A stretch of 64,000 nucleotides of DNA, from contig NZ_JAMCCX010000017.1 of NCBI RefSeq assembly GCF_024706985.1, positions 62,001 to 126,000 on the forward strand, written 5' to 3'. Below, piece after piece: positions 30,243 through 51,872 of this stretch. The translations under genes were made by a program, and so were the position numbers. Numbering within the stretch: the first letter of the stretch is position 1; each line of letters begins with the position of its first letter. This stretch comes from Alicyclobacillus sp. SP_1 (GTDB lineage Bacteria > Bacillota > Bacilli > Alicyclobacillales > Alicyclobacillaceae). The notes beneath the pieces are model-generated. The model was not told the DNA's origin and ran no database searches. It saw only the letters and a program-made list of their open reading frames with translations.

Positions 30243-30259
30243 AATAATGGAGGAATTCG

Positions 30260-32534: not shown

Positions 32535-32555
32535 GTCCAAGAAAGGGAGGATACC

Positions 32556-33704: not shown

Positions 33705-33735
33705 CACGTCTGGCATTTGAATTCGTAGCCGCTCG

Positions 33736-33765: not shown

Positions 33766-34004
33766 CTTATTTTTTGGAGCGGGAATCTTGGCAAATGGCT
33801 GACGTGTGCGGTAGGATGACTTCATGCTGGGCGCATAGAAATGTTTGGCTAGACAGGGATGAACCGAATGGTTGAGGGCCATGTCATCATTTTTGGCGAC
33901 GGATAACCGGGATGACGGTGGCTTATAGGCTTTTGAAATCCAGTGAGATACAAGGGATTCCTCAGGACTTGTGAAATCTCATACGCAACGTGGGAGAGTG
34001 ATGC

Positions 34005-34760: not shown

Positions 34761-34763
34761 CGT

Positions 34764-34892
34764 GATCTGGGGCATGTCCTGACGGACAGTTGGTATTCCA
34801 ACAGGGCCTTGATGGATGCCTGGAACGCGAGAGGGTTTCAGGTGATTGCTGCGTTTAAAGTCAATCGAATGATCTACGTTCTTACTGAGTGA
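34764..34892 (+). mobile_element. transposase remnant (DDE type)
   Basis: About 40 codons with the pattern TDSWYSNRALMDAW, then GFQVIAAFKVNRMIY, typical for the C-terminal catalytic part of IS701/IS4-like transposases. No start and no other part of the element is present. Confidence 0.6.
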
Positions 34893-34939
34893 AAACTGAC
34901 AGCCTAGGATCTGCAGATTCACGACTCACTATACGTATG

Positions 34940-34970
34940 TGTAAATTTGCTTTGCGAACGCAAATTTACA
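34940..34970. repeat. AT-rich inverted repeat
   Basis: Perfect 11-bp arms TGTAAATTTGC and GCAAATTTACA with a nine-base loop. It may be a terminator for the minus-strand ORF beside it, or an IS end. Confidence 0.5.
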
Positions 34971-34974
34971 AGAG

Positions 34975-35133
34975 TCAAGTTAAAATAATCATGTCGTACC
35001 ACATCATGAGTTGCTTGTAAGAAAACGATTCGGCTGTAATCAGATATTTTTTCAGTTCCTCAACACTGAAGAACCCATCGACAACAATCTTTTTGCCTCC
35101 AGCACGCCCGACATAAAAGGACTGCGATAACAA
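34975..35133 (-). CDS. possible small ORF or gene fragment
   Basis: 52 codons from a TTG on the minus strand. The product reads FYVGRAGGKKIVVDGFFSVEEL, then a Lys/Tyr-rich helix. It looks protein-like but no family is recognised and the start lacks a ribosome site. It may be an end fragment of a gene lost at the transposase remnant. Confidence 0.25.
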   Translation of the reverse strand: MLSQSFYVGRAGGKKIVVDGFFSVEELKKYLITAESFSYKQLMMWYDMIILT

Positions 35134-35223
35134 GCCACGAGACAGTTATAATATCGCGTGGCTCAGTTTTTGTGCTGTACACTCTTGTCGTCTCTCTTTT
35201 CAAAATCATGTAAAGCTCTTCAG

Positions 35224-36945: not shown

Positions 36946-36961
36946 TGTCGATCTCCCCCTT

Positions 36962-37453
36962 TTACTTTTTCTCCATTTCGTCAAGAAATCGTATAGAGCG
37001 TTCCATTCGCTCTTGGTACATATCGCGCATCATCACTACGTTTTCAATTTTTGTATTCATTTTGCCAATCAAGTTGCGAAGAACATCGATGTACCGCTCG
37101 ACTGCCAACTTTTGTGTATCAGGGCTCTGGCCATTCTCGTGAAATGTCCGTCGTAATTCTTTCAGAGACTCCTCCGCAGCCATAATTTCCTGAATTTCTT
37201 GAAGAGAGATACCTAAATGGTCTTTCAGCCGGAGGATTTGCTTAAGGAGATCCATCGTGTTCTGATCATATAAACGATGCCCACCACTGGTTCTCGATGT
37301 GGGAGAAATTAGACCCACTTCCTCATAGTAGCGAAGCGTTCTCGGCGTAATACCCAGTTGTCGTGAGACCGCATCAACGGTCAAAGCGTTCATCTCATTA
37401 TCCGTCAAATGGATACACCCACTTTGTACAGAGTTGCGGTTTGCATCTAACAT
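36962..37453 (-). CDS. MerR-family regulator
   Basis: The 163-residue protein has an N-terminal MerR helix-turn-helix (about residues 22-90; AVSRQLGITPRTLRYYEEVGLI and GGHRLYD). A long coiled coil and helical C-terminal region follow without a Cys metal site, as in drug-responsive MerR proteins. It probably controls its own operon with the DHA2 exporter. The start is uncertain: the ATG at 37453 gives a 20-residue extension before the domain, while the ATG at 37393 is closer to the family norm, and neither has a strong ribosome site. Confidence 0.85.
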   Translation of the reverse strand: MLDANRNSVQSGCIHLTDNEMNALTVDAVSRQLGITPRTLRYYEEVGLISPTSRTSGGHRLYDQNTMDLLKQILRLKDHLGISLQEIQEIMAAEESLKELRRTFHENGQSPDTQKLAVERYIDVLRNLIGKMNTKIENVVMMRDMYQERMERSIRFLDEMEKK

Positions 37454-37456
37454 ACG

Positions 37457-37485
37457 ATACTATATAAACATATAGTTAACGTCAA
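37457..37485 (-). promoter_or_regulatory. merR-exporter promoter with palindrome
   Basis: On the minus strand TTGACG (37480-37485), 17 bases, TAGTAT (37457-37462). The inverted repeat ACTATAT-N4-ATATAGT (37459-37476) lies in the spacer, as in MerR-controlled promoters. Confidence 0.6.
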
Positions 37486-37537
37486 CGTACATTTGCAATT
37501 TGCATTTACAAGACCTCGGGAGGTGAACCAAAGCTGT

Positions 37538-38290
37538 TTGCGGCTTTGGGAAAACGTGAAGATCGCGGATGGAGTCGAGATGCTTGAACTTGAAATGAAC
37601 ATGATGGGCCATAAAAACACGATCAATCCGACACTTCTCTATGATGACCACCGTTCTGTTCTGGTGGATGTCGGAATGCCGGGTCAACTGGAGGCCATCC
37701 AAGCCGCCATGGAAAAGGCGGGAGTGCCGTTGGAGCGCATTGACGCGGTGATTTTCACACACCAGGACATCGATCATATCGGTGGCATGCAAGATTTGTT
37801 GAAAGCCCTGGGCAAGCCGATTGAAGTCTATGCACACGCCGAAGACAAGCCATATATCGAAGGTGACAAGGAACCGATCAAGATGACCCGTGAGCGCGTA
37901 GTTCAGATGCTTGAACGCATGCCGGAGGGTGTGCGCAAACAGGCTAAGGCCATCTTCCTTAGTCAACCGACTGCCAAGGTGACGAAAACGGTGTCTGATG
38001 GCGAAATCCTTCCGTTTTTCGGCGGTGTTCAAGTCATCTTTACGCCGGGTCATACCCCAGGTCACATCAGCCTATATCACCAAGCCACTAAGATACTCAT
38101 CACCGGAGATGCGACGGTCAGTCAGGACGGGAAAATTCTCGGCCCTAACCCGCAGGCCACGCCGGACATGCCGATGGCTCTTGAGTCGCAGAAGAAATTC
38201 ACTTCACTCGATATTTCTAAGGTGATCTGTTATCACGGTGGACTCTGTCAAGATCGTGTCAACGTGCAGTTTCGTGAACTAACCAAGTAA
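37538..38290 (+). CDS. metallo-beta-lactamase-fold hydrolase
   Basis: About 250 residues. Metal site motif THQDIDHIGG (HxHxDH variant with Q for the second His), then a His in FTPGHTPGHIS, Asp in ITGDA and a last His in CYHGG. This matches MBL-fold hydrolases of the glyoxalase-II-like group. Gln in the second position is unusual and may alter metal binding. The TTG at 37538 is favoured by GGAGGTGA; the ATG at 37580 is an alternative. The isochorismatase-like gene follows after 34 bases. Confidence 0.8.
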   Translation: MRLWENVKIADGVEMLELEMNMMGHKNTINPTLLYDDHRSVLVDVGMPGQLEAIQAAMEKAGVPLERIDAVIFTHQDIDHIGGMQDLLKALGKPIEVYAHAEDKPYIEGDKEPIKMTRERVVQMLERMPEGVRKQAKAIFLSQPTAKVTKTVSDGEILPFFGGVQVIFTPGHTPGHISLYHQATKILITGDATVSQDGKILGPNPQATPDMPMALESQKKFTSLDISKVICYHGGLCQDRVNVQFRELTK

Positions 38291-38324
38291 TGGTTCATTT
38301 AAAATGCACAGGAGGTATGAGCAG

Positions 38325-38891
38325 ATGCATTCGAAAAATGCAGCGCTCTTAGTAATGGACGTTCAAAATGGCATCGTCTCGCGTTATGCAGTAAATCCGG
38401 AAGTCATGGCTCCCTTTCAGAATGCGGTCAGCGTAGCCCGCCAGGAAGGCATTCCCGTCATCTTTGTCCGCGTTGCATTCCGTACAGGCTATCCGGAAGT
38501 CAGCGCAAGAAACAAGTCGTTTTCCGCCATTGCACAGAATCGGAATGCTATGACCGCATCCGAACCGTCCACGCAAATCCACGATTCCGTCGCCCCTCGA
38601 CCAGATGAGCCCGTTGTCACGAAACTCCGCGTCAGTGCATTTACCGGTAGCGATCTCGAAGTCATTCTTCGATCCCGACAAATCAACACACTTATCCTCA
38701 CTGGCATCGCGACGAGCGGCGTGGTCCTGTCAACTTTGCGCGAGGCCGCAGATAAGGATTATGGCCTGGTCGTGCTATCCGACGCTTGCTTGGATGCCGA
38801 TGCGGAAGTGCATCGCGTTTTGCTGGAAAAGGTGTTTCCGCGTCAGGCCGATGTGTTGACAGTGGGCGACTGGATCGCGACGCTGCGTTGA
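38325..38891 (+). CDS. isochorismatase-like cysteine hydrolase
   Basis: This 188-residue protein starts with LLVMDVQNGIV (catalytic Asp). The Lys lies in VVTKLRVSAF (near residue 102) and the region of the catalytic Cys reads LTGIATSGVVLSTLREA, where Ser stands at the usual Cys position (family pattern TGxxTxxCV). A loss of the nucleophile would make it non-hydrolytic, or this branch differs. The ATG at 38325 follows CAGGAGG. Probably cotranscribed with the MBL gene. Confidence 0.8.
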   Translation: MHSKNAALLVMDVQNGIVSRYAVNPEVMAPFQNAVSVARQEGIPVIFVRVAFRTGYPEVSARNKSFSAIAQNRNAMTASEPSTQIHDSVAPRPDEPVVTKLRVSAFTGSDLEVILRSRQINTLILTGIATSGVVLSTLREAADKDYGLVVLSDACLDADAEVHRVLLEKVFPRQADVLTVGDWIATLR

Positions 38892-38924
38892 ACTGGGTGT
38901 CCGGTTGGCTCATTGAGGTGTGGG

Positions 38925-39303
38925 AGCGGGTGTTGGCGTCTGATCCTGGCGGCCGGCTCTGCGGCCATCGGCGTGGCCACTACCGTTGGGCGTGGAGTAT
39001 GCGTTCGCGTCCGTGATGTACGCGGGCGGCAAGGGCATTGTGGTCTCCATGCTGCTGAGCGCCGTCATCACGATGATGGGCTTGACGGCACTGGCGGGCA
39101 CCAGGGTGTGGCCGAAGGTGCAGATCGCGGCCTTTTTTCCGGTCGCCATTGGCGCGGGCATGGTCGCTGGTGCTGCAGTGAGCGGTCATACGGATCTCAT
39201 GCTTGGGGGATCTGTCCTCGTCATGTTTGCAACGGTGGCGGTGCGCCGATTCGGCATTCCGTATTTCTTCTACGGATTCATGGGGTGGAGGTTCTTGATG
39301 TGA
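38925..39303 (+). pseudogene. FUSC-like membrane transporter fragment
   Basis: An N-terminal part in one frame (RLILAAGSAAIGVATTV) continues in another frame from 38986 (VEYAFASVMYAGGKG through FFYGFMGW). This matches the N-terminal membrane domain of FUSC/aromatic-acid exporter-like proteins. At about 39290 it is cut by an IS110-like transposase remnant on the other strand. A frameshift near 38983 and the missing rest show it is dead. Confidence 0.65.
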
Positions 39304-39569
39304 GCGGCGTTGGCCAGAGTGAGGGTGCAGGTGGCTTCCAGCACGTTGAAGACCAGTTTCCAGTACACGCCGGTGCTTTCCATGGCGATCTCGGTACACC
39401 CGAGTTCCGCCACCCAGTCCGAGAGCTCCAACAATCCGAACAGCACGGTGGGGAACTCTCGCATGAACATCTGTGGTTTCTCTTTCAGTGATCCCTTGAG
39501 AACGCAGGCGACGACGTTGGCCTGGTGAACGTCCAGGCCGGCACAGCATTCCCGGATGCACCTTTTCAT
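39270..39569 (-). mobile_element. IS110-family transposase, truncated
   Basis: From the ATG at 39569 the product has the IS110 RuvC-like start CCAGLDVHQANVVACVL and then TEIAMESTGVYWKLVFNVLE (DEDD motif residues). It stops matching at NAAHIKN, where the sequence enters the FUSC-like gene. Only about 90 codons of 350-400 are present, so it is inactive. Confidence 0.8.
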
Positions 39570-40060
39570 CCTTTCCAAGCAGGGCACAGCTGCCTGACCC
39601 AAGGAAATTTGATGGATGTCCTCGTGGTGACAATAATTTGTGCTCAAGGCAGCTGTGGCTAGTTTAGGGCATGGGGTCGCACCCCATAAAGGAAACAACC
39701 TTCCTGTCCTGCTTGGTCTCATGATCGCTTATGGACCCCAGTAAACTACCCAGCGGTATTTTCATCATAATCTCGTGTCCCGCCAGGGGCATGGGGGTTT
39801 AGGGCCAAACGTTTCAGTTCATCATGCAAGATAAAGATACCGATGGAGGGACATGATACGGGGATATGGCCATCCTCTCTATGCGACGGCCCTGTTCTGT
39901 TGTATTCGACGCAGTGAACTAAATCCAGATTCCTGTCGTCCGTACTGTGAAATAACTCTATATATGTAGCAGTAAAGGGTATCCCCATTCGCCGCGGGGA
40001 AGGATATGCTCTCATGATGGACTGCAGGTTGTTGGCTGAGACGACAGGGGTGATCCCTTC
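39570..40060. other. intergenic region; IS110 upstream end and decayed ORF
   Basis: 39570-39740 is probably the outer part of the IS110-like element. On the minus strand 39746-40016 is open (about 90 codons; pattern IPFTATYIELF, VSCPSIGIFIL), with no ribosome site and no recognised family. It extends into the ECF sigma gene on the other strand and may be noncoding or a remnant. Confidence 0.35.
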
Positions 40061-40594
40061 TTGGATGACGATGACGTGCATCTGGTGCATCGCGCCAAAC
40101 GCGGAGACACCGATGCCTTTGAAGCCATCGTTCGAAACTACCAAAACTTTGCGTACCGCACGGCGTATGGGGTGACGCAGAACCATGTGGACGCTAAAGA
40201 TGTTGTGCAAGAATCTTTTGTGAAGGTGTTTGTATCCCTTCACACCCTGAAGGAGGAACGGACATTCCCGACCTGGTTGGCCAGGATCATCGTGCGCACG
40301 GGCGTCGACTGGTTGGCTATCCACCGACGAGCGCGTGACGTACACATGGATTTGACAAATATTCCGTCAAATCAGAGAGAATCCCAGTCAGTGGATACAC
40401 GCATTGATGTGCAACGAGGCTTGGCGCTTCTGAGTATGGAGCACAGAACGGCCCTCCTATTGCGGGATGTGCAGGGGTTTGCCTACGAAGACATCGCCAA
40501 AATCCTGGACATTCCCATTGGAACCGTCCGGTCGCGCATTCACAATGCGCGCCAGCAGTTGCGAAGGACGCTATTGGGAACGGAAGGAGGATAA
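40061..40594 (+). CDS. ECF-type RNA polymerase sigma factor
   Basis: This 177-residue protein has sigma-2 (about residues 10-75; RNYQNFAYRTAYGVTQNHVDAKDVVQESFVKVF) and sigma-4 (about 118-170; GFAYEDIAKILDIPIGTVRSRIHNAR). The TTG at 40061 has GGGGTGATC upstream. The anti-sigma factor gene follows five bases after its stop. Probably activates envelope genes, since its operon also holds a membrane protein and the next genes are PAP2 and DedA phosphatase/flippase-type genes. Confidence 0.9.
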   Translation: MDDDDVHLVHRAKRGDTDAFEAIVRNYQNFAYRTAYGVTQNHVDAKDVVQESFVKVFVSLHTLKEERTFPTWLARIIVRTGVDWLAIHRRARDVHMDLTNIPSNQRESQSVDTRIDVQRGLALLSMEHRTALLLRDVQGFAYEDIAKILDIPIGTVRSRIHNARQQLRRTLLGTEGG

Positions 40595-40598
40595 CAGA

Positions 40599-41102
40599 AT
40601 GGATTGTGCCAAGATAGAGGCCAGTCTGTCCGCCTATATGGATGCAGAATTATCATCCGACGAAACGCATTTGATCGAGGCCCATCTGGCAAGTTGTGTA
40701 TCGTGTCAGGCACGGTTGGATGTGTGGAAATTCGTGGCTTATGCCGTACGAGGAACCTATGAAGAAATCCGTGCACCGGAAGACATGCTGGCACAGGTCA
40801 TGAGCCATGTTTCTTCTGCAAGGCAAGGCGGTCAGATCGGGCGTGTCGCCCGCCTTCTGGCTATCGTTTTGTGTGCCTTTGGGGTGGTGGGTGTTGCGGT
40901 GACCCTGTCTTCCATTGGGCTGGTCCTGTGGCCCTTCTTTCATCTGCTGCTTCCGTTGTTGGGAGGCCTGTACGGATTCAGAAGCATGATCAGCACGGGC
41001 TGGATCGTGGCGGGCGGTATCGTCTCCCTTAGTTTGGCGACGCTTTGGTTGCGCCTGATGAACCGGGTACTCAAAAGCGTAAGGAATGAGGTTGTGATAT
41101 GA
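40599..41102 (+). CDS. zinc-finger anti-sigma factor, membrane bound
   Basis: 167 residues. The cytoplasmic N-terminus has the ZAS motif His-x3-Cys-x2-Cys in EAHLASCVSCQARL, typical for anti-ECF factors. Three hydrophobic segments follow (about 80-105, 110-130, 135-155). The ATG at 40599 has GGAAGGAGGATAAC upstream. Its stop overlaps the start of the next gene (41099-41102). Confidence 0.85.
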   Translation: MDCAKIEASLSAYMDAELSSDETHLIEAHLASCVSCQARLDVWKFVAYAVRGTYEEIRAPEDMLAQVMSHVSSARQGGQIGRVARLLAIVLCAFGVVGVAVTLSSIGLVLWPFFHLLLPLLGGLYGFRSMISTGWIVAGGIVSLSLATLWLRLMNRVLKSVRNEVVI

Positions 41103-41971
41103 GGCGCTGGACCCCATTTCTGGCAGGCCTGCTGATGACGTTCCTGATCGGCATTGCGTCCTTGGCGAATACCCCGGCCGCTCATGCGGCATTTAAAGAC
41201 AGCATCCTGTCTGTGAACCCGGTTGTGGTCAATCGCGGGGAGGCCATCAAGGATGTGGCGGTGATCGGACACAATGTCGTGATCTCCGGCGATGTCTACG
41301 AGGCGCTCCTTGTAGTAAACGGGAATGTGCGTCTGACTCCGACCGCCCGGGTGGGCGTACTGGTCGATTTCGGCGGCACCGTGGAGACGGCGCCCGGCGC
41401 GCAGGTCCATGCAGAGTACACGGTTTCGTGGGGGTCTCCGTTTTGGAACAGTGTCCTCTTGGGAAGCGGCTTGGTCCTCTTGGTCTGGGCCTTCCGGATG
41501 GCGTTCAGCGCCGCACTGCTGGCCGTTCCTCTGCTCTTGTCCATCGTGTTGGGGAAATGGTTGGACCGACCGGCTGACGTGATCGCACAGTCCGTTCGAC
41601 GGACAGGCGCAGTCGGACTGCTGACGGCATTGGGAACCCTGGCCGTTTCGGGAGTTCTGGCCATCACGATTCTGGGACTGCCGGTCAGCGCCATCCTTCT
41701 GTTGTGTTACGGAATCCTGGGCTTGGCGGGATGGTCCACAGTCTCCTTATGGCTAGGACGCATCTTGGCGCATGCGTTCTCTTACGGGGACAGACCGCGA
41801 TGGCTTCAGTGCATCATGGGGGCCGCTGTATTAATGGCCTTCATCAGTGTACCGACGGCGGGCGTGCTGCTCTTTCTCTTATCTTGGCTGGTCGGCACGG
41901 GGGCGGTGACCATCGTGCTGTGGCAATGGTTCGAAAGCCGAAGGGAACGGCGTTCCAGAAAGTCCTCATAG
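41099..41971 (+). CDS. bactofilin-like/polytopic membrane protein in ECF operon
   Basis: The 290-residue protein has a signal peptide (about residues 1-30, ending AAHAA). A beta-rich stretch resembling the polymer-forming (bactofilin-like) repeat follows (about 38-105; VAVIGHNVVISGDVYEALLVVNGNVRLTPTARV), then four to five membrane helices. Similar proteins are common third genes of ECF/anti-sigma operons in Firmicutes, with unknown role. Translationally coupled to the anti-sigma gene by overlap. Confidence 0.75.
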   Translation: MRRWTPFLAGLLMTFLIGIASLANTPAAHAAFKDSILSVNPVVVNRGEAIKDVAVIGHNVVISGDVYEALLVVNGNVRLTPTARVGVLVDFGGTVETAPGAQVHAEYTVSWGSPFWNSVLLGSGLVLLVWAFRMAFSAALLAVPLLLSIVLGKWLDRPADVIAQSVRRTGAVGLLTALGTLAVSGVLAITILGLPVSAILLLCYGILGLAGWSTVSLWLGRILAHAFSYGDRPRWLQCIMGAAVLMAFISVPTAGVLLFLLSWLVGTGAVTIVLWQWFESRRERRSRKSS

Positions 41972-42027
41972 AGCAAGGGAATGCAGTCGCCGGCCTTATA
42001 ACGAGCGGCGGAACGGTCAGAACGGAA

Positions 42028-42621
42028 TCAGGATTGTGGCTTGAATCGGCATACCTTCATAGCGAACACGGTGAGTGGGAAAAGATAGTGAGAAGATCGC
42101 CACATCAAACGGCCCGAAACGGTTCCGATTACGAAACCGGCGAGCACATCCGTCGGCCAGCGCATCCTGACGTACCCGCGCCAACAGGACCAGGATCGCC
42201 ACGGCTGTGAACGAGGATTGGATCCACCGACAGTTGGTTCCCCACGACGCGGCGGCGAAAGCGAAACTGCCAGAAGCATGGTCGCTGGGAATGAGGCGCC
42301 TACGGGGTGCGAGATCAACTGAGTCTAGGTTCCCTTTCGTAATACGACATACGGGCGTGGGCGGAACCAAATGTGGGAAATGGCCACGTTCACGAAAAGT
42401 GCCAACATGCCTGCGAACCCCACGACGATGAGTGCGTGCCGATGCCTGGTGTCCATTTTGGGCAGGGTGAACCAAGCGACGAGATAGAGGACTACGTAGA
42501 TTTCCAAGGCGTATTTCGCGAAGAACATCAACACGGCATCCAACAAGGGGTGATGGCCGGCCAGTCCGTTAATGGCATGATACGTCTGTATGTCAAAGTG
42601 GGAGAACGTTAGATGCGCCAT
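42028..42621 (-). pseudogene. PAP2-family phosphatase, frameshifted
   Basis: The first 98 codons (42325-42621) encode the N-terminal membrane part through HIWFRPRPYVVL and then a stop. The continuation SDHASGSFAFA is in a second frame and MRWPTDVLAGFVIGTV in a third. The intact homologue at 46253-46855 shows the original order. At least two frameshifts and a stop make this copy dead. Its start overlaps the end of the upstream membrane protein gene. Confidence 0.85.
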
Positions 42622-43049
42622 GCCGGCGATCGCCAGGATCTGTGCGAGGAGACCGGCGAAAAGAAGAGGTAAAGACGCGTTCGAGTCCGCGAAGACGTGC
42701 GGCGCCGAATCATGGCCAGGATGCGCTTAATCGTGGCCTTCACCCACAGCAGACCGGACAGAACGACCCATACGATGCTCAATAGCCATAGGACGAGCCA
42801 CCAAAATCCGACATGCGGAGCGGTCGCGCCATGCGGGAACAGGTGCGCGGCGAGGATGTGTAGAATCCTGTTCACCTCGAACAGCCCGGAGAACAGGGCA
42901 ACGGCTTTCAGCACGAGGGAAACCCTGTCCACGGGTCGAATCAGGATCCGGATGAGGCTCTGTTTCAGACCTCGAAGGAGTTTCAGGATCGTGGTTTGCG
43001 CATCAATGTAGACATGTTCCAACGCGAAGGGAAGAAGACGTTTCCACAT
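42609..43049 (-). CDS. small membrane protein upstream of PAP2 copy 1
   Basis: The 146-residue protein has three hydrophobic segments at about residues 48-70, 78-105 and 120-146, separated by basic loops (RRTSSRTRTR). The ATG at 43049 follows CCAGGAGGTCGAT. The gene overlaps the start of the PAP2 pseudogene. No family is recognised. Confidence 0.6.
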   Translation of the reverse strand: MWKRLLPFALEHVYIDAQTTILKLLRGLKQSLIRILIRPVDRVSLVLKAVALFSGLFEVNRILHILAAHLFPHGATAPHVGFWWLVLWLLSIVWVVLSGLLWVKATIKRILAMIRRRTSSRTRTRLYLFFSPVSSHRSWRSPAWRI

Positions 43050-43208
43050 ATCGACCTCCTGGTTGGCTCTAGTATTGGCGGTGGGCTCATGGTTACATCG
43101 GTAAGGAGGACGAGGATCAGAAATAAGCTCAGGGAGATTGGCTGAACTTTTTTCGCTGCGCCGGCGTCCGTGTTCTGGCAAGTATCTCGAGGTGCAGGAA
43201 GCGATTTC

Positions 43209-43799
43209 GTGCATTTGCATATCCAGCAGACAATTCATCACTACGGCTACTTTGGCGTGTTTTCCATTCTGCTGCTCGAAATGGTGGGCATTCCGTTTCC
43301 CGCCGAAACCACGCTGACGATCTCCGGTATCGAATGGACCCAAGGGGTCTTCCAACTTGTCCCACTTCTCGTGGCGGCGGCCACAGGCAACTCGATCGGC
43401 TCCATCATTGCCTATTGGATCGGACGGCTTCTGGGGCGACCTGTCATCGTTCGGTGGGGAAAGTACGTGGGCATCACGAGCGAACGGCTGGATAAGGCCA
43501 ACGGAGTGTTCCATAAGTATGAGGCGACGGTGGTGTTGTTTTCGAAATTCATCGCGGGCATTCGCGTTTTGGTGCCCTATTTGGCGGGCATCAACCGGAT
43601 GTCGTTTGGTCTTTTCGCGCTCTATACGACGATCAGCGCCGTGGTCTGGTCGGTCCTCTTTATCCTTCTGGGCCGGTATCTGGGGATCGAATGGTCGCGG
43701 TACCATCAGGTGCTGCACCAATACATGGTCCCGGGGATCATCGTTCTGGTCCTGCTTCTTGGCTTGATCGTGTATTGGCGCAAACGGCGCCAGAAGTAG
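43209..43799 (+). CDS. DedA-family membrane protein
   Basis: About 196 residues. The SNARE-assoc/DedA pattern is clear: LLEMVGIPFPAETTLTISG at the start, a G-N-x2-G segment (AATGNSIGSIIAYWIGRLLG), then FSKFIAGIRVLVPYLAGINRM and a C-terminal helix. DedA proteins such as UptA move undecaprenyl phosphate back across the membrane. The GTG at 43209 is favoured by GCAGGAAGCG. It lies divergent to the PAP2 pseudogene operon; PAP2 and DedA proteins act on the same lipid carrier. Confidence 0.88.
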   Translation: MHLHIQQTIHHYGYFGVFSILLLEMVGIPFPAETTLTISGIEWTQGVFQLVPLLVAAATGNSIGSIIAYWIGRLLGRPVIVRWGKYVGITSERLDKANGVFHKYEATVVLFSKFIAGIRVLVPYLAGINRMSFGLFALYTTISAVVWSVLFILLGRYLGIEWSRYHQVLHQYMVPGIIVLVLLLGLIVYWRKRRQK

Positions 43800-43814
43800 G
43801 GAAGGGCTGACGTT

Positions 43815-44069
43815 TTACCGCTTGAGCATTCGATCTTCGCCAAGCGTCTGGATCAGTTGGGATACCCGGCGGGCGAGTTCGTCGAGCACGTTCTCATCGC
43901 TCACTCGGCTTTTTCCCAAAGCGCCGCGACGGATGTAGGCGGAAACATGCACCCGTCCCTTTCTCTTTCGCACGGTTGTGACGGTATATAGTCTGCCATG
44001 CAGGTATACCGTCACCGGAAACGCCAAGCGGTTATGCCTAATGTTTACGATCGGGTTCACCGCGCACAC
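43815..44069 (-). CDS. hypothetical 84-residue protein
   Basis: A small basic protein with a beta-rich first half (VTVYLHGRLYTVTTVRKRKGRVHVSAYI) and a helical end. GTG start after AAAGAAAGCGG. Convergent with the DedA gene. Family not recognised. Confidence 0.45.
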   Translation of the reverse strand: MCAVNPIVNIRHNRLAFPVTVYLHGRLYTVTTVRKRKGRVHVSAYIRRGALGKSRVSDENVLDELARRVSQLIQTLGEDRMLKR

Positions 44070-44140
44070 CCGCTTTCTTTAAGGATAATACCGACCATGC
44101 CGAAACATCCTCGTGGCTTTGACCTCGCACGCACCGCTAT

Positions 44141-44157
44141 CCCTTGACTTCACTCAC
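44141..44157 (+). repeat. 17-bp direct repeat flanking IS3 element, left copy
   Basis: CCCTTGACTTCACTCAC. A copy with one change is at 45608-45624 on the other side of the IS3 element. It may be part of the element's ends or a target relic. Confidence 0.4.
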
Positions 44158-44293
44158 GGCCAACGAGTGGCGGTGACGGCAGAACCTTTCGAACTAACCT
44201 TCCACTGATCGTCACATGGAGCAGTATCATTTTAGTTGAGTCAACAAACTCGTAATTCTGGAAAGAATGATAAAAAAGGAAGAAGGAATCCAG

Positions 44294-44581
44294 ATGCGAG
44301 TGTACGACAAAGAATTCAAAGAAGAAGCAATAAAATTGTCTTATGAAATCGGGCCAACAGCGGCCTCCGAACAACTGGGGGTTCCGTCCACAACGCTGTA
44401 CACATGGCGGAGCCAAAGCAAGAAGCATGGATCCTTGGCATTTGTAGGGAGTGGCCACCAGCGTATCGATCCGAAAACCGCCGAGTTGAAGGGGTTGGAA
44501 AAAAAGATCAAGGAATTGGAATCCGCCAATGATATCCTGAAAAAAGCGTTAGCTTTTTTCGCAGAGAGCCAAAAGAGGTAG
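44294..44581 (+). CDS. IS3-family transposase OrfA
   Basis: The 95-residue protein has a helix-turn-helix (EEAIKLSYEIGPTAASEQLGV, then TTLYTWRSQ) and a leucine-zipper helix (LKGLEKKIKELESANDILKKAL). The ATG at 44294 has AGAAGGAAT upstream. The codons near its end contain T-TTT-TTC in the zero frame (44554-44560), a classical -1 slip site. Slipping joins OrfA to OrfB and gives the full transposase. Confidence 0.9.
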   Translation: MRVYDKEFKEEAIKLSYEIGPTAASEQLGVPSTTLYTWRSQSKKHGSLAFVGSGHQRIDPKTAELKGLEKKIKELESANDILKKALAFFAESQKR

Positions 44582-44592
44582 CTGCACGAGAC

Positions 44593-45480
44593 TTGTTTCG
44601 TTTTATAGGGATTCAAAAGGAAAAAGACGCCACCAAGCACAGCGTGAAGGAAATGTGTAAGGTTTTGCAGGTCAGCGAAGCTGGCTACTATCGCTGGCGG
44701 CGTACTCAAAACAGGCCCTATAAATACGATGATCTTTTGGCGAAGATCCGTCAGATTCGTGCAGAAAACAAAGACTATGGAGCATACCGAATTTACTTGG
44801 CCTTGCAACTGTTCCACGGCTATATCGGTACCTATAATGTCGTCCGGAGACTTTGCAAAACCCATCAACTGATGCTGAAGAAGAACCATCATGCCCAGGG
44901 AACGACCAAGGCTGATCCTGCTGCACAAGCGAGCGAAAATCTGATTAAGCAGGATTTCACTGCCACGGCCCCCAATCAAAAGTGGCTGGGGGATATCACG
45001 GAGATCCCCACGGCGGAGGGCAAGCTGTATGTCAGCGCCGTATTGGATTGTTATGATGGCGCAATTGTAGGATTTAAGATGGCGGATCACATGAGAGCCG
45101 AACTCTGTGTCGCGTCATTCACCTTGGCTGTCCAAAAGCATCAAGCCTTTGGCATGACGTTTCACAGTGATCGAGGAAGCCAGTTTACCAGCAAGGTGTA
45201 CCGAGAAACCTTGGCCAGGTATGGTGCGGTGCAAAGTATGAGCCATACCGGAAGATGCTACGACAACGCCAGAATGGAGTCTTTTTTTGCCACGCTGAAA
45301 AAAGAGTGCATTTACAAGGTCAAAACAGAAACATTGAAGATGGAGGTGGTCAAAAGCATGGTTTTCCGGTTTATCGAAATTCACTATAATCGGAAACGAA
45401 TTTACACAACCAACGATGGTTATCCACCTTTGATGAAACGTCGTCAGTATTACCGAGACCAGCTATCCGAGGTGGTATAA
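44593..45480 (+). CDS. IS3-family transposase OrfB
   Basis: The 295-residue protein has an HTH_21 region (VSEAGYYRWRR), then the DDE integrase core: Asp in WLGDITEIPT, Asp in FHSDRGSQFTS and Glu in NARMESFFATLKKE. Its frame is open upstream through the OrfA end, so it is made mainly as an OrfAB fusion by -1 frameshifting at 44554-44560. Complete, so the element may still move. Confidence 0.92.
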   Translation: MFRFIGIQKEKDATKHSVKEMCKVLQVSEAGYYRWRRTQNRPYKYDDLLAKIRQIRAENKDYGAYRIYLALQLFHGYIGTYNVVRRLCKTHQLMLKKNHHAQGTTKADPAAQASENLIKQDFTATAPNQKWLGDITEIPTAEGKLYVSAVLDCYDGAIVGFKMADHMRAELCVASFTLAVQKHQAFGMTFHSDRGSQFTSKVYRETLARYGAVQSMSHTGRCYDNARMESFFATLKKECIYKVKTETLKMEVVKSMVFRFIEIHYNRKRIYTTNDGYPPLMKRRQYYRDQLSEVV

Positions 45481-45569
45481 AAAGCGGGTAGCTAAGTTCT
45501 TGCTCCCAACATCTGTCGCAAGACCGTTTTTCATTTTGTTTAGGAATTCATTCGTCAAGGTCAGGTCGT

Positions 45570-45597
45570 ATTTTCCAGAAAAGTACGTCTGGAAAAT
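45570..45597. repeat. inverted repeat downstream of IS3 OrfB
   Basis: Perfect 10-bp arms ATTTTCCAGA and TCTGGAAAAT, eight-base loop. Possible terminator or subterminal IS sequence. Confidence 0.5.
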
Positions 45598-45607
45598 CTC
45601 CACCTTT

Positions 45608-45624
45608 CCCTTGACTTCACCCAC
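45608..45624 (+). repeat. 17-bp direct repeat flanking IS3 element, right copy
   Basis: Matches 44141-44157 at 16 of 17 positions. Confidence 0.4.
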
Positions 45625-45697
45625 CACCCCTAGGCGTAGCCATAGACCGGTATTACGAGTTTCGGGGCTAAACTAAATTTGACAATTCCAACAGCTG

Positions 45698-46260
45698 TTA
45701 CGAGTCCAACCGCCACCCGTACGGCATCCAACTCCCATTGAATACTCCCTCAAAGACGAGCACCGTCGCCAGATAGTACGGTAGGATGGACACTCCGGCC
45801 GTCCACATGTAGGGAATCCACGTGAAGGGGGGACATGGCAAGCGCGTAATTGACCACAATCCCAGGGATGAGCAACAGACGAATCAGAAGAATGCGCCAA
45901 GCTCCGTGTCCGATGACCCATTGTACGCGGACGAACATGGGGGCGCGATCCACCAAAAACCGGCCTAACCGGCGGGCTATGACAAACGTCATGGCTGTCT
46001 CGAGCAGACACCCAGTGATTGCATATCCCAATCCCCACCAGACGTCGTACACCTTCAAACACGCGAGAACGAAGCCTTCGGACGGTAAGGGGGTCATGCA
46101 AAGGAACGCGACCAGAACGATCCATACATACGCCTATCGGGCCCATATTCTGAATGAAGACAGACAGGGTTCCTTGTCGATCCACGACAAGAAAAGCTGC
46201 AGCTACGACTGAAGCAACAAGCAGGGCTGAAATCCATCTCGCCCCTTCATGGCTACACAT
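45698..46260 (-). pseudogene. VTT/DedA-like membrane protein, frameshifted
   Basis: The start (ATG 46260) encodes a membrane helix (ALLVASVVAAAFLVV). The main part (PLPSEGFVLACLKVYDVWWG through IPGIVVNYALAMS) is in a second frame and the end (VSILPYYLATVLVFEGVF) in a third. This order matches TVP38/DedA (VTT) proteins. Its ATG overlaps the stop of the PAP2 gene, so the two were one operon. At least two frameshifts. Confidence 0.7.
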
Positions 46261-46855
46261 CCCGAACCGTGTCCGTCTGTCGGCCACCATATCGGAAGAG
46301 CCGGAGTCCGATTTTCGTGATCCAACGTACATACTTTTCAAACCGCCAGGCGATCATGCTGGAGAACAAACCGACCACAACGCCCGCCACGACATCTGTC
46401 GGCCAGTGCAGTCCCACATATACCCGAGCAATGGCCACTAGTATAGCCAGTGCCATAAAACTGCGCCGAATCCAGATGGGTCCCCTCCGATACACGCCGA
46501 AGGCAAAGGCAAAACTGCCGGATGCGTGATCACTCGGAAACGAGGCGTCGTTCGAATGGGCAATCAACTGGTGAAATGTCCCGTTTGGCAAGACGGCAAA
46601 CGGCCTCGGTCGAAACCAGATGTGCGAAATGACCACGTTCACGACCAGGGCCAAGATACCTGCTAATACAGAGACGATGAGCCCGTGGCGTATTTTGGAG
46701 TCCTCACGTGGTAATGTGAACCAAGCCACTATAAAGAGCGCCGCATACAAAAAGGGAGCATCCTTGGCCAACACGATCATGATCGCATCGAGGATCGCCA
46801 CATGACCAGACAGATTGTTTACAAAATGATATAGTACTACATCAAAGCTATTCAT
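46253..46855 (-). CDS. PAP2-family phosphatase (BcrC-like)
   Basis: The 200-residue protein has five to six membrane helices. The phosphatase motifs are present: FRPRP (end of motif 1), FPSDHASGS (motif 2, PSxH) and ARVYVGLHWPTDVVAG (motif 3). Similar proteins dephosphorylate undecaprenyl pyrophosphate outside the membrane, recycling the cell-wall lipid carrier. The ATG at 46855 follows AGAGGAACG. Intact homologue of the dead copy at 42028; its VTT partner is dead. Confidence 0.88.
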   Translation of the reverse strand: MNSFDVVLYHFVNNLSGHVAILDAIMIVLAKDAPFLYAALFIVAWFTLPREDSKIRHGLIVSVLAGILALVVNVVISHIWFRPRPFAVLPNGTFHQLIAHSNDASFPSDHASGSFAFAFGVYRRGPIWIRRSFMALAILVAIARVYVGLHWPTDVVAGVVVGLFSSMIAWRFEKYVRWITKIGLRLFRYGGRQTDTVRDV

Positions 46856-46987
46856 TTGCTCGTTCCTCTCCGCCAGTTATATCGCATGACGAAAACCCTG
46901 TGCTTTCGTGCACGCGCACTTACTGACGACAGTAGGATCTCAAAAGTTCACGATGCGCGTCTAAGCTCATTCATCGTCTGGAAGCGG

Positions 46988-47362
46988 TTATCTTGTAATG
47001 ACATCTTCCCGGCGTGGCCCGACGGAGATTAGGCGAATGGGGACTCCGATCACCTATTCGATCCACTCTACATAGCGTCTAGCTGCTTCAGGAAGCTCCG
47101 CATAGGCGCATACCGTCGAAACGTCAGTCTTCCACCCTGGCATGGTCTTCAAGACAGGGGTGGCCGCGTCCAACTTCGCCGTCACGGGAAATTCGGTCGT
47201 GGGTTCCCCCTTGACCCGATAGGCGACACAGATGGGGACCTCAGCCAGATAGCCCAGCACATCCAGATTGGTCAGCGCCACCTCCGTGGCTCCTTGCACT
47301 TGGCAACCATAGCGAGTGGCCACGGCGTCAAACCGGCCCACGCGTCTCGGCCGCCCGGTCAT
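46988..47362 (-). pseudogene. purA: adenylosuccinate synthetase 3' fragment
   Basis: The translation reads TGRPRRVGRFDAV, LTNLDVLGYLAEVPICVAY, MPGWKTDVSTVCAYAELP and ARRYVEWIE. This is the conserved C-terminal third of PurA, including the GTP-binding and IMP-site region. A TAG at 47054-47056 interrupts it, after which the usual PurA end (ISVGPRREDVI) continues in the same frame to 46988. The first two thirds are missing. A dead copy; a functional purA must lie elsewhere. Confidence 0.88.
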
Positions 47363-47450
47363 ACGGCGACGAGGCGGCAAAGGCGACTGCGGTGGTAAAA
47401 CCCACGCTCAGCGCTACCACCGTTGCGATCCCGAGCAACGTTTTATTCAT
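47328..47450 (-). pseudogene. truncated secreted-protein gene start
   Basis: From the ATG at 47450, preceded by GAGGAGGATGAG, a typical signal peptide is encoded (KTLLGIATVVALSVGFTTA, then AFAA). After about 32 codons the gene runs into the purA fragment in another frame and stops. The 5' end of an exported protein gene was joined to purA by a deletion. Confidence 0.6.
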
Positions 47451-48272
47451 AAAGTACTCATCCTCCTCGAAATTAGTTCCCTGCACCTAACCATTCGGCA
47501 CAAGGAACTTGTTTTTATACTTCACCTTATAAGACCGCCGATGCGCCAAAAAAGTTGCATCCCACATGTGCAAAAATACGAGAGTGCAACCAGAGTTCCC
47601 GCCGCGTCTGAAGCAAGAGACGGGCACAGGAGTATCCTTGGCACGCCGCGCCTTATGCATTTTTAAGTTAAGGAAACAGCGATAACCCCGGACATACGAG
47701 AAGTCAACGCATGATGGCCATATGTCAGCGAGTTCATTGAGAGTTCATTCTTCCGGCACGCCGAGCAGCATTCGCGCTGCAAAAACCGCGAATCGGCGCA
47801 ACTCCTCACCGCCCGCCTCCGTAGTTTAGGCCACCCATAGAAATAGGAGGTTCCATCTGTCCTTCGGTACCAGTGCCTTCAACTGCTCCTTGATGTCGTC
47901 TTTGATCTCTTCCGACTGAATCATGGGTGTTCAGTCAGCATCATAGAAATCTTCGACCAGCTTCTCCGCCAACAATGTCAACGCTACATCGCCCGTCAGC
48001 ATCCCCGCCCTCCATCCGCGTTGCGTCTGAGAATACCTCTCCCAGCTTGACGTCAGCAAGTCCAATTGCAATTCTTGTTGTGGCACCGTCATGGCACCCT
48101 GGCATGGTTTCCCGTAGGTAACATGAGACTGTACGATGCTGCAGCAGGGTGGCGACTCGAATCGCCGCCCTTTGCGTTTTCCAGCAGCGTCACACCATGC
48201 CCAGTTTCACGTCGCTTATCCCGGCGTCCACCTGATTGAATCTCCGTCCCCCGTATCCGATTTGCCGCTTGA
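47451..48272. other. decayed intergenic region
   Basis: No convincing gene. Short minus-strand frames encode protein-like stretches (DDIKEQLKALVPKDRWNLLFLW near 47830-47926, and ADVKLGEV near 48050). The DVKLG block recurs near 48200, which suggests a duplicated remnant. All lack starts or are cut by stops. Confidence 0.4.
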
Positions 48273-48705
48273 TGGCTATACCTTTACACGATGCTGACTG
48301 TCGACCAGCTTTGCGCCTTGCTGCACGATCAGCCGGACAGCATGTACCAGACTCTCGGCAAGATGAGAAAGAGGGACTGGGTACAACCCATGCGCCTGGC
48401 CTTTCTGCGCCGCAACGTGAAAGGGTGGGTGCTGACCAAAGAGGGACTTCCGTTTGCGTTTGGACTGACGAAGGAAACCCGTGCAGGACTCCTTCGGCAG
48501 CAGGGCAACCTGCCGGACGATTCCAGCCATTTGGGCCGTCTCCGAACTCCACATGGAAACGGACGGCATTTTGCAAGCGGTTTGGAACGGACCATGGGAA
48601 CACCGGGAATCGTTGAGGGACTGTCCGAACATCGACTGCGACACATACCGTGACATGGTGCCACTTGGGAGGCAGACCCGTCTTCCCCTGTTTGTAAGAG
48701 GATGA
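48273..48705 (+). pseudogene. replication-relaxation/winged-helix-like remnant
   Basis: The frame from 48273 encodes a winged-helix-like segment (MLTVDQLCALLHDQPDSMYQTLGKMR, then a strand pattern WVLTKEGLPFAFGL). The later part seems to continue in another frame up to 48705. The pattern recalls replication-relaxation proteins of conjugative or plasmid elements. Assignment is weak. The frame change and odd C-terminal composition suggest decay. Confidence 0.3.
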
Positions 48706-49045
48706 ACGACTTCTTATCGTGAATCTGCGAATTCGCTGCAAATCAATTCACTGGCAACCAATTTGCTTGCTGCCCCCTTGACGCGCACACTTGCCTCACG
48801 TTCGCGTTCAATGCCTCAGTCCTACCCTACGCATCAATGTCCTGATCGCGCCACGTGCGCGCAAGGGGCGCGACACGGCCCGTCTTCCTACGGGAAGAAA
48901 ATACGCCTGCGGCGATATTTCGGGAAAGCCCATCCAGACGGATCGACATCGTCGACAGCGGCCGAGACGTGATGGGGATGGCCGTAGCATGCACCCCGGA
49001 GTGCGCCCCCGATTGCAAAAATAGAATCGTGTCAAAGTTCCCCGC
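48706..49045. other. intergenic region with nothing recognised
   Basis: Overlapping short frames on both strands, none with a ribosome site plus a recognisable product. Confidence 0.35.
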
Positions 49046-49070
49046 CACCCCCTCGAAGGAAGGGGTGTTT
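49046..49070 (+). terminator. possible terminator upstream of the recombinase gene
   Basis: CACCCCCT (49046-49053) pairs with AGGGGTG (49061-49067) with one bulged C, followed by TTTTCGTT. It would shield the recombinase promoter from upstream transcription. Confidence 0.5.
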
Positions 49071-49210
49071 TCGTTGTCTCCGTGTCGCGGGAGGAGGAAT
49101 CGGCCATGGTACGAGACATCGCGCCGCATTTTGACAAGCAGGTTCCGTATATAGATGTACCGATGAGGGGGCGCAGCGCCATGCATGTCAAAATTATCGA
49201 AGGCGAATGG

Positions 49211-49239
49211 GCTGACAAACGGCGGGCGGCTTGCTATAG
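49211..49239 (+). promoter_or_regulatory. sigma-A-like promoter of the recombinase gene
   Basis: CTGACA (49211-49216), 17 bases, TATAGT (49234-49239), about 50 bases before the recombinase start. B. subtilis spoIVCA uses the mother-cell factor sigma-E; no good sigma-E pair was found by eye here. Confidence 0.45.
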
Positions 49240-49289
49240 TTATCTACGAATCTTGTATATGCGAAGGCAGGCGCAAGGAGGTGCCGACC

Positions 49290-50795
49290 ATGCCGACGGC
49301 GATCTATGTGCGGGTGTCGACGGAGGATCAGGCGAAACACGGGTACAGCATCCCGGATCAGATTCGACAATGCCGGACGAAGGCCGGTGAGACGGACATC
49401 TGGGAGTACGTGGACGAGGGGGTGTCGGGCGAGTTTCTGGATCGCCCAGCCCTGTTACGGTTGCGACAGGATGTGCACGACGGACTGATTGATACGGTGG
49501 TGTGCTACGATCCGGACCGGCTGTCGCGCAAACTGGCCCATTCGCTCCTGGTGGCCGAGGAGATCGAGAAGCGGGCGCGGCTTGTGTTTGTCAACGGCGA
49601 ATTTGCGAAGACTCCGGAAGGGATGCTGTTCTACCAGATGCGCGGCGCAGTGGCGGAATTTGAAAAGGCGAAGATCACCGAGCGCATGGCGAGCGGACGG
49701 CGGCAGAAGGCGCGTCAGGGCAAGGTGGTGCGCGACTTTCAAATCTATGGGTATCGCTATGACAAGGAGACGGCGCAGTTGCGTGTGCACGAAGAGGAGG
49801 CGGCGGTCGTTCGTCTCATCTTTGATCTGTTCACCAAGCCGAGCGCGGCGGCGCAGGGAATCAACGGCATTGCGAACCATTTGACGCGCCAGGGCATCCC
49901 GACCAAGAAGCATGTGGGCGTCTGGCATCGGCAGGTGGTGCGCCAGATCCTTCACAATCCGGCGTACATCGGCGAACTATACCAAAATCGGTGGAACGCG
50001 GAGGGAATGCTCGGTAATCCGTTTCGTAACGAGGACGAGAAGATTCACCTGAAGGCGCGCCCGCGTTCCGAATGGATATACACGCCATGCCCGGCGATTG
50101 TGGAGGAAGCGCAGTGGCGCTACGCCCAGCAGTTGCTCACGACATCAAGACGAAGGTGGGCGGGTCAGTCTCGACATGAGTACTTGCTGTCGGGGTTGGT
50201 GCGTTGCGCAGACTGCGGCAACACGATGACCGGACGGCGGGCGAAGAACTGGGGGCGCTTCGTGTACGAATACACGTGTGTGAAAAACACGGCGGGAGCC
50301 AAGCACAAAGGGTGCGGACATCGCTTGATCTGCGAGGATCTGGATGGACAGATCTGGCAGCAGATGCAGGCATGGCTGACCGCGCCGGAGGAGCTGGCTA
50401 CGGCGATCAACGAGGAGCCTTTGCAAACGCCGTACGAACAGGACGAGTGGGAGCGGGTGTGCCGGGACATCGAACGCAATGAGCGGGGGCAACAGCGTCT
50501 CTTGGCGTTGGTGACCGAGGAGGACGGTCTCGATCTGGGCGACATTCGGGACAAGCTCAAGGAGCTCAAAGCGCATCGTGCGCAAGGGGAGGCCCGGAAG
50601 GTGGAACTGGAAACGATTCTTGCGGCGCAGGCAGAGCGAGACGGGAGCCGACAGACCGTGCAAGAAGCGGTCGAACATTATCTGGCGGTGCATCCTGAAG
50701 AACTGACCGAGGGGCAGAGGCGGGAGATCCTGCGGATGGTGGTGCGCGAGATCCGGGTGTACAAAGACGGGCGGGTCGACGTGTTCACCTTTTGA
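49290..50795 (+). CDS. spoIVCA: large serine recombinase, sigK element excisionase
   Basis: The 501-residue protein (B. subtilis SpoIVCA has 500) has a resolvase domain (about residues 1-150) with the catalytic Ser in AIYVRVSTEDQA and Arg residues in YDPDRLSRKL. The recombinase domain follows (GIANHLTRQGIPTKK and WHRQVVRQILHNPAYIG), then a zinc-ribbon-like domain (CADCGNTMTG with later Cys), and a C-terminal coiled coil. Many blocks match remembered SpoIVCA sequence closely. It would excise the element to rebuild sigK in the mother cell. The ATG at 49290 follows AAGGAGGTG. Here it points the same way as, and adjoins, the 3' half of sigK. Confidence 0.93.
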   Translation: MPTAIYVRVSTEDQAKHGYSIPDQIRQCRTKAGETDIWEYVDEGVSGEFLDRPALLRLRQDVHDGLIDTVVCYDPDRLSRKLAHSLLVAEEIEKRARLVFVNGEFAKTPEGMLFYQMRGAVAEFEKAKITERMASGRRQKARQGKVVRDFQIYGYRYDKETAQLRVHEEEAAVVRLIFDLFTKPSAAAQGINGIANHLTRQGIPTKKHVGVWHRQVVRQILHNPAYIGELYQNRWNAEGMLGNPFRNEDEKIHLKARPRSEWIYTPCPAIVEEAQWRYAQQLLTTSRRRWAGQSRHEYLLSGLVRCADCGNTMTGRRAKNWGRFVYEYTCVKNTAGAKHKGCGHRLICEDLDGQIWQQMQAWLTAPEELATAINEEPLQTPYEQDEWERVCRDIERNERGQQRLLALVTEEDGLDLGDIRDKLKELKAHRAQGEARKVELETILAAQAERDGSRQTVQEAVEHYLAVHPEELTEGQRREILRMVVREIRVYKDGRVDVFTF

Positions 50796-50867
50796 CGGTG
50801 GACGCATAGGCTAGCCATCGTGAAGATCCTGCTTAATATATGGGATTATTAACCGCTACCATTAGAC

Positions 50868-50885
50868 ATTTATATAGAAATCCTA
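50868..50885 (+). other. right attachment junction of the sigK element
   Basis: The sigma-K frame is open upstream only to a TAA at 50850. The residues PLPLDIYI do not match sigma-K, while EILMHLR from 50877 does. In B. subtilis the exchange lies in the codons for ENE just before ILMHLR. The crossover here should be at about 50,874-50,880. The sequence of the left junction is needed to define the shared core. Confidence 0.65.
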
Positions 50886-51257
50886 ATGCATCTGCGTTCA
50901 TCCAAAAAGCACCGAAAAGACGTGTATCTATCGGATCGAATCGGTGTGGACAAAGATGGGAACGAATTGACGATTGCCGACTTGCTTGGGTCGGACCCGG
51001 ATGCTGTGGAAGACATGGTTGACCTTTCGTGGGAAAAGCAAAAAGTTTTCGAGCTGATGCCAAGTCTTCCCGAGCGAGAACGGGAGGTCCTCTGTAAGCG
51101 GTATGGACTCCCCGAAGGGGAAGAGAGAACACAGCGCGAAATTGCCAAAGAGTTGGGGATTTCGCGCTCTTACGTGTCACGCATTGAGCACCGCGCACTG
51201 ACGACGCTTTACCAACACATGCATGGTGGCACCACGAATTCGGCTATGCTAGAGTAG
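50877..51257 (+). CDS. sigK: sigma-K, C-terminal half (split gene)
   Basis: About 126 residues correspond to sigma-K from the region 2 end through region 4: EILMHLR, then KDVYLSDRIGVDKDGNEL, LPEREREVLCKRYGL, and the helix-turn-helix TQREIAKELGISRSYVSRIE. Sigma-K directs late mother-cell transcription in sporulation. The N-terminal half with the start codon, pro-sequence and core-binding region 2 is not here. The ATG at 50886 has no ribosome site, so this part is not made alone. Excision of the upstream element would restore the full gene. Confidence 0.92.
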   Translation, partial: EILMHLRSSKKHRKDVYLSDRIGVDKDGNELTIADLLGSDPDAVEDMVDLSWEKQKVFELMPSLPEREREVLCKRYGLPEGEERTQREIAKELGISRSYVSRIEHRALTTLYQHMHGGTTNSAMLE

Positions 51258-51326: not shown

Positions 51327-51872
51327 ATGACTCAGTGGCTAAAAAACTATTTGCCGGACGAATACGTTTCGTCCGTTTACGATCTTTCCCTGGACGAGCT
51401 CTGGCGGCAAGGGCGCCGGCTTCTCCTTTTTGACTTGGACAATACTTTGGTTCCTTGGAATCATGGAGAGGTTTCGGAAGAGCTCATGAACTGGTTGGAC
51501 TTGGCGCGTGAGCGTGGTTTCTTTGTGTGTATTTTATCGAACAACCGAGGGACGCGCGTCCGGCAGTTTGCGGAACGCATTGGCAGCGACTATATCGCCG
51601 AAGCGAGGAAACCCAAAGACATTGCATTTCTACAGGCAATGGAACGATTTCAATGTACACCTGAGATGACGGTTATGATTGGAGACCAATTGTTTACGGA
51701 TGTCCGCGGTGGAAATCGCGTGGGTGCTCGAACGGTTCTCGTTCTTCCGATTTCTCGGAGGGAATGGTGGGGAACACGATGGAATCGGCGCGCGGAGCGC
51801 GTCATTCTCTATTGGTTGCGGCGTCGATACGCGCTTCGCACACCGAATCGAAGGGAGAAGACGAGGAATTGA
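51327..51872 (+). CDS. yqeG: YqeG-family HAD phosphatase
   Basis: 181 residues, HAD superfamily IIIA: motif I LFDLDNTLVPW, motif II ILSNN, the Lys in ARKPKD and motif IV VMIGDQLFTDV. Bacillus YqeG precedes yqeH in the same operon as here; the physiological substrate is not settled. Its stop overlaps the TTG start of yqeH. The ATG at 51327 lacks a close ribosome site (GAGGAGAG is about 20 bases upstream). Confidence 0.9.
   Translation: MTQWLKNYLPDEYVSSVYDLSLDELWRQGRRLLLFDLDNTLVPWNHGEVSEELMNWLDLARERGFFVCILSNNRGTRVRQFAERIGSDYIAEARKPKDIAFLQAMERFQCTPEMTVMIGDQLFTDVRGGNRVGARTVLVLPISRREWWGTRWNRRAERVILYWLRRRYALRTPNRREKTRN

Follow-up and report, generated by a model that had tools for sequence, protein, structure and literature searches.

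The split sigK locus

The window analysed here, a stretch of 64,000 nucleotides of the genome of Alicyclobacillus sp. SP_1 (G000; 3.40 Mb in 105 contigs, completeness 99.98, contamination 0.47), corresponds to positions 62001-126000 of contig C17, window position 1 being C17:62001. The following features are considered:

1..50876, no strand: the portion of the intervening element that falls in the window (the whole comprises C50:169,647-173,180, an IS, and C17:77-112,876)
2896..4617, minus strand: cargo, mercury(II) reductase MerA (TIGR02053, 635.2 bits, cut-off 454.45)
10512..12932, plus strand: cargo, copper-type P-type ATPase with two HMA stretches (TIGR01511, 629 bits, cut-off 397; HMA)
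49181..49390, plus strand: candidate skr-like directionality factor, 69 aa when the ATG at 49181 is taken as the start (conserved open frame, skr-like overlap)
49290..50795, plus strand: large serine recombinase of the SpoIVCA type, 501 aa (Pfam Resolvase, Recombinase and Zn_ribbon_recom; sigK-linked relatives)
50862..50878, plus strand: element side of attR, from the arm TTAGACATT (50862-50870) up to the proposed crossover GA (50877-50878), from junction comparison
50877..51257, plus strand: 3' half of sigK (canonical copy, sigK-A), starting with EILMHLR (TIGR02846 positions 111-226)
51327..51872, plus strand: chromosomal flank, a yqeG-like HAD phosphatase that also lies beside sigK in G001 (comparison with G001)

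In a profile search, the frame at 50877-51257 matched positions 111-226 of the SigK model TIGR02846 (1.1e-42). It begins 81 bases after the end of the recombinase gene, and an in-frame TAA lies upstream at 50850. The first-pass annotation had described a 501-residue SpoIVCA-type recombinase, a sigma-K frame starting at EILMHLR right behind it and a stop at 50850, and all three readings, together with their coordinates, were correct. It had also suggested looking for a 5' half of sigK in the chromosome to the left of the window. Such a half exists, but on contig C50 (169311-169646) and not upstream on C17, so that the idea of a sigK without a 5' half can be discarded. This piece sits 3.6 kb short of the end of C50, matches TIGR02846 positions 2-116 (C50:169320-169661 in the search of G000) and opens with VTGLFALLAFLLRDVSIFVSHVKNNNFPQPL, which we take to resemble the start of pro-sigma-K. 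The same search returned 14 matches in G000, other sigma factors and weak ones included, among them a SigE-like match at C28 and, at C39:9320-9967, an intact gene of the SigK family that scored 306.8 bits, above the TIGR02846 cut-off. An intact sigK elsewhere combined with a missing 5' half had been named beforehand as evidence against a split; the intact gene is there, but so is the 5' half.

In G001, a genome of the same genus, alaS, ruvX, mltG, sigK, yqeG, aroE, nadD, yqeK and rsfS form an unbroken stretch of about 10 kb. In G000, alaS, ruvX and mltG precede the 5' half on C50, and the remaining genes of the operon follow the 3' half on C17. The two sigK pieces flank the element in direct orientation. 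The first-pass annotation had equated the break with that of the B. subtilis gene, and in named Bacillaceae loci the halves of sigK end and start at the same place as in G000. G015 was considered as a further split sigK and rejected, since each of its two pieces reaches a contig end and the profile ranges that they cover overlap.

The sequence is ATTGAAAAC-GA-CATATC at the left junction and TTATATA-GA-AATCCTAATG at the right. On sequence, recombination at the common GA yields CIENEILMHLR with the sigK frame intact, and G001 sigK has identical residues at this position. The proposal that sigK is split by a skin-like element, made from the window only, is thus supported for CIEN/EILM by the 5' half, the G001 operon, the frame-restoring att sites and the relatives of the recombinase that lie beside sigK.

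The symmetry of the circle junction (attP) was scored in G000, G036, G016, G042 and G037. With the centre placed at the common GA, which was picked for restoring the frame, and with shuffle figures that carry no correction for that pick, the G000 junction is palindromic, its arms agreeing at 15/20 positions, a value that 0 of 20,000 shuffles reached. The arms of G036 and G016 also agreed at 15/20 each (0/20,000 shuffles), those of G042 more weakly at 12/20 (60/20,000), and in G037 the symmetry fails (6/20; 6,918/20,000).

Extent and content of the intervening element

Contig C50 stops just within an IS end and C17 starts within the opposite end. An identical 12-bp target duplication lies outside both of these ends, the remaining five copies of the left IS end having different flanks. 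When C50 and C17 are joined at the IS target site, a single reading frame with an apparent signal peptide at its start continues across the join. Moreover, all seven matching stretches found in five other genomes (G021, G003 with two, G049 with two, G037 and G051) are collinear across it; two pairs among them have identical scores and so seem to be the same element present in two genomes. Judged from the IS flanks and these relatives, C50 and C17 are linked, which gives an element of about 116.3 kb (about 3.5 kb on C50 and 112.8 kb on C17), not counting the IS. One conjugation gene is interrupted by the IS in G000, and transfer may have been lost because of this.

The element encodes a VirB4-type conjugation ATPase (AAA_10, 6.2e-51), for which TcpF is the nearest named model (3e-48, 164 bits, below the cut-off of 1100), a coupling-protein-type match that is above cut-off and covers 34 residues (TrwB_AAD_bind, 4.3e-8) and a relaxase-like protein with a Replic_Relax domain (1.3e-16). 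A transglycosylase, two DNA methylases, a T2SSE/TadA-type ATPase and a weak T2SSF match were found as well. A Pfam search of a possible relaxase remnant at 48291-48653 gave no useful match. In-frame stops in relatives of VirB4 were examined as signs of decay and dismissed, since in the two alignments read, G049 C35 and as much of G037 C8 as was in view, they precede the likely true start. Besides MerA and the copper-type ATPase, the element carries sulphur-transport and metallo-beta-lactamase/rhodanese proteins, and NifS-like and sulfide-quinone-reductase-like proteins that fall below the cut-offs of the named models. No tRNA genes were found in C17:1-62000 or in the window.

With a minimum length of 70 aa, 132 candidate ORFs were counted in C17:1-112900, and those of C50 come on top. 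In the 20 proteins from this set that were scanned with PHROGs there was no capsid, portal or terminase, and the only matches to head, tail or lysis families were the transglycosylase and an M23 peptidase. A prophage content is unsupported by these 20 proteins, and the element appears to be conjugation-type rather than prophage-like in the proteins tested. When two 19.9-kb pieces of the window were compared with four genomes of the same family, the matches listed beyond sigK and its flank were scattered and reached at most about 1.4 kb. An IS3-like transposase pair (HTH_Tnp_1 and rve) lies at window positions 44267-45480, near the right end of the element, and a remnant of another large serine recombinase lies within the element at C17:19820-20164.

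The recombination unit and its relatives

The small ORF at 49181-49390 overlaps the start of the recombinase gene by 101 nt in a frame shifted by one. At 21 loci, defined by a recombinase at least 45% identical with its N-terminus in view, this frame extended upstream without a stop for 100 nt or more in all 21, compared with 3/21 for the other frame. The upstream peptides of 17 loci, four near-identical ones being left out, gave a mean pairwise score of 42.7 versus 19.7 and 21.7 for the other two frames. No match to the small ORF was obtained in Pfam (E up to 1) or PHROGs (E up to 1e-5). There is good evidence in these comparisons that it is a conserved gene. According to PMC6957869, the skr gene of B. 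subtilis, which codes for a 64-aa protein needed for rebuilding sigK, shares 101 nt with spoIVCA in a frame shifted by +1; by analogy the small ORF is probably a recombination directionality factor. A promoter scan with a sigma-E consensus brought out no clear sigma-E promoter: the best site of the G000 locus scored 11/15 and was equalled in 36/500 shuffles, and between 31 and 499 of 500 shuffles did as well at the remaining 20 loci.

Matches to the recombinase at 1e-60 were obtained in 13 of the 59 genomes of the order. All nine genomes with a recombinase at least 49% identical, G000 included, have it next to a sigK piece, versus none of the four at 36-40% identity within 1.5-kb flanks. Likewise, 24 of 26 named loci with a related recombinase have a sigK piece in their flanks (about 8 kb away in L127), a count in which the contigs of G042 and G046 appear a second time; in the two lacking it the recombinase is only 26-27% identical. 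The recombinase of G021 adjoins a short sigK piece with a stop, and in G041 the recombinase adjoins the 5' half and not the 3' half.

The closest recombinases, 97% identical in G042 and 96% in G046 (a fragment at a contig end), belong to another family of the order and likewise lie in sigK; no 5' half was found among the sigK profile matches of G046. Near the recombinase, the DNA of G000 is 93-94% identical to that of G042 and G046, and the rest of the flanks is mosaic, the stretch common to G000 and G042 covering about 2 kb round the recombinase among the matches listed. A sequence of about 40 bases at window positions 48891-48930 marks the edge of this shared stretch; it is present once in the window, and very many copies, as a lower bound from the matches listed, occur in G042, G045 and G046. 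The recombination unit appears to have moved between families, since it is nearly identical in G000 and G042, yet the sigK genes of these two genomes are far apart in the sigK tree.

The rest of the element has different relatives. The backbones of the seven stretches in G021, G003, G049, G037 and G051 are collinear with that of G000, with DNA pieces 65-82% identical. None of the seven contains sigK, the backbone end being out of view in two. It is visible in the other five, from three genomes (G021, G003 and G049), and there a different recombinase of about 500 aa is encoded, which is 25-27% identical to the sigK recombinase of G000 and 79-82% identical to a protein on contig C45 of G000. In G000, about 430 bp separate the start of the backbone from the 5' junction in sigK, and it is at this same backbone end that the related islands carry their own recombinase. 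Because the same backbone has an unrelated recombinase in three other genomes, the integration unit has probably been swapped, and the conjugative element would now use a sigK-specific one.

Copies of sigK and interpretation of the element

The intact gene on C39 is a second SigK-type copy, sigK-B (L025, C39:9275-10027), which among the matches listed occurs in many genomes of the order beside the canonical sigK and sigE. The sigK tree, built from 40 sequences, places the joined gene of G000 with the canonical copy of G001 (100/100) and the C39 gene with the second copy of G001 (100/99), in a sigK-B clade of both families. The joining of the two families in this clade brings long branches together and is possibly false, according to a warning of the program. 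The tree left out 14 intact loci in which the motif missed the frame, the intact copies of G042 and G046 among them.

Either copy can be interrupted. SigK-B is the split one in G016 and G037. In G036 the canonical gene is split by 105 kb, with GAGA common to both junctions and a recombinase 51% identical to that of G000. The second sigK of G036 (L122, G036:C1:1650500-1660000) has a break close to profile position 140, filled by about 4.4 kb at whose end lies a 533-aa ORF that looks like one more serine recombinase; this sigK copy also lacks its N-terminal part. In G021, sigK-B is in three pieces (L113-L115, G021:C1:1064000-1144000), one of them inverted beside the recombinase, possibly through nested insertions and an inversion. 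Short sigK-like frames of 178-200 aa, covering profile positions 65/66-225, were seen among the matches listed for four genomes of genus g5 (G005, G020, G030 and G032); these are either truncated or split near codon 64.

Both halves of sigK-A are open in G000, and the joined gene is 82% identical to that of G001 at the amino acid level. Between the same genomes, sigK-B is 84% identical and five neighbouring genes, compared codon by codon, 50-63%, and tblastn gave 69% for alaS, 69% for rsfS and 58% for yqeK. For sigK-A, pN was 0.137 and pS 0.864, with synonymous sites saturated. The sigK-A branch is 0.35 in G000 and 0.16 in G001, and relative-rate tests gave a chi2 of 5.56 with one of five outgroups and 0.20-1.19 with the other four; G000 sigK-A may evolve somewhat faster than that of G001. 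Taken together, sigK-A looks to be under constraint, and excision is likely to be functional. The first-pass annotation had held that the host would have to excise the element to make sigma-K. This is not established; since an intact paralog lies elsewhere in G000 and could carry the host without excision, excision need not be essential.

We consider it quite probable that sigK-A is interrupted at CIEN/EILM by a conjugative-type island of about 116 kb that has a SpoIVCA-type unit obtained by exchange and is excised during development. The island would enter the canonical sigK by site-specific recombination through this unit, its backbone having acquired sigK targeting when the integration unit was swapped. 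With the small ORF acting as directionality factor, the recombinase would cut the island out in the mother cell and rebuild sigK, and the island would stay in the spore genome.

The interruption might instead be plain damage, with sigK-B sufficing, no developmental excision and sigK-A decaying. The intact sigK-B, whose counterparts were listed for many relatives, the longer G000 branch of sigK-A and the broken sigK-B of G021, with a stop beside such a recombinase, speak for this. However, both halves of sigK-A are open and conserved, with an identity to G001 above that of neighbouring genes, the recombinase and the candidate factor are open, the att sites are well formed and joining restores the CIENEILMHLR context, so we regard plain damage as rather unlikely. 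An artefact of assembly or contamination could be suspected given 105 contigs and halves on separate ones, but the joined halves group with the sigK-A of G001, att symmetry extends across the contigs, the flanking genes match G001 on both sides and the completeness and contamination values speak against it as well; such an origin is extremely improbable.

Another alternative is that a small skin-like element may have been in sigK first and the conjugative island entered it later, the two not forming one mobile unit. Other sigK elements of the order measure just 4.7 and 6.2 kb, the part listed as shared with G042 is about 2 kb round the recombinase, and a remnant of another serine recombinase lies inside the island. 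Against such a two-step origin, the shared backbone comes to within about 430 bp of the 5' junction of sigK, and it does so at the end that holds the recombinase of the related islands; in the circular form the sigK unit therefore occupies the integrase position. We thus hold this alternative to be doubtful, if deserving of attention, and prefer the single island with an exchanged unit. The broader claim, towards which we lean only slightly, is that a conjugative element naturally traded its unit for a sigK-specific one, tying a metal-resistance island to spore development, and that the duplicated sigK offers two landing sites for diverse elements (a 105-kb prophage, elements of 5-6 kb and the 116-kb conjugative-type one). 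If true, it would couple metal-resistance cargo to a developmental switch, and with its two sigK copies the order is a natural setting for testing if excision has to be obligatory.

The best-known elements splitting sigK are prophages or prophage remnants. The element of G000 is a sigK-intervening element in structure, and its content differs from that of the well-known phage-like ones. It resembles the skin element of B. subtilis (spoIVCA, skr) in the split sigK, the large serine recombinase and the small ORF overlapping by 101 nt (PMC6957869). Unlike skin, a 48-kb prophage-like region (PMC13141910), it is about 116 kb long, carries conjugation-type and metal-resistance genes and coexists with an intact sigK paralog elsewhere. 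The latter article also describes the Alicyclobacillus phage MMB025, a 105-kb prophage in sigK with the short core TCTC. The G000 element shares the location in sigK and a short core with MMB025, but MMB025 is an infectious phage, whereas the G000 element shows no phage structural genes in the 20 of 132 candidate ORFs scanned. From its size, target gene and core, the 105-kb sigK element of G036 is probably the MMB025 prophage or one near it. By its description in PMC5595907, the gin element of Bacillus cereus ATCC10987 is comparable in splitting a sporulation gene and not being prophage-like; its target, gerE, differs. The conjugative-type islands of G021, G003, G049, G037 and G051 share the backbone with the G000 element, but none of their seven stretches contains sigK. 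In the open-access literature surveyed, to the extent that its texts were available, we found no report of a natural conjugative element in sigK. Finally, Suzuki et al. (PMC6957869) engineered exchanges of integration units among phage SPbeta, skin and ICEBs1 and showed that such units function in phages and ICEs foreign to them. The case of G000 is similar, except that theirs was engineered and this one looks natural; if true, it would represent in nature the kind of unit exchange, from one type of mobile element to another, that they showed by engineering.
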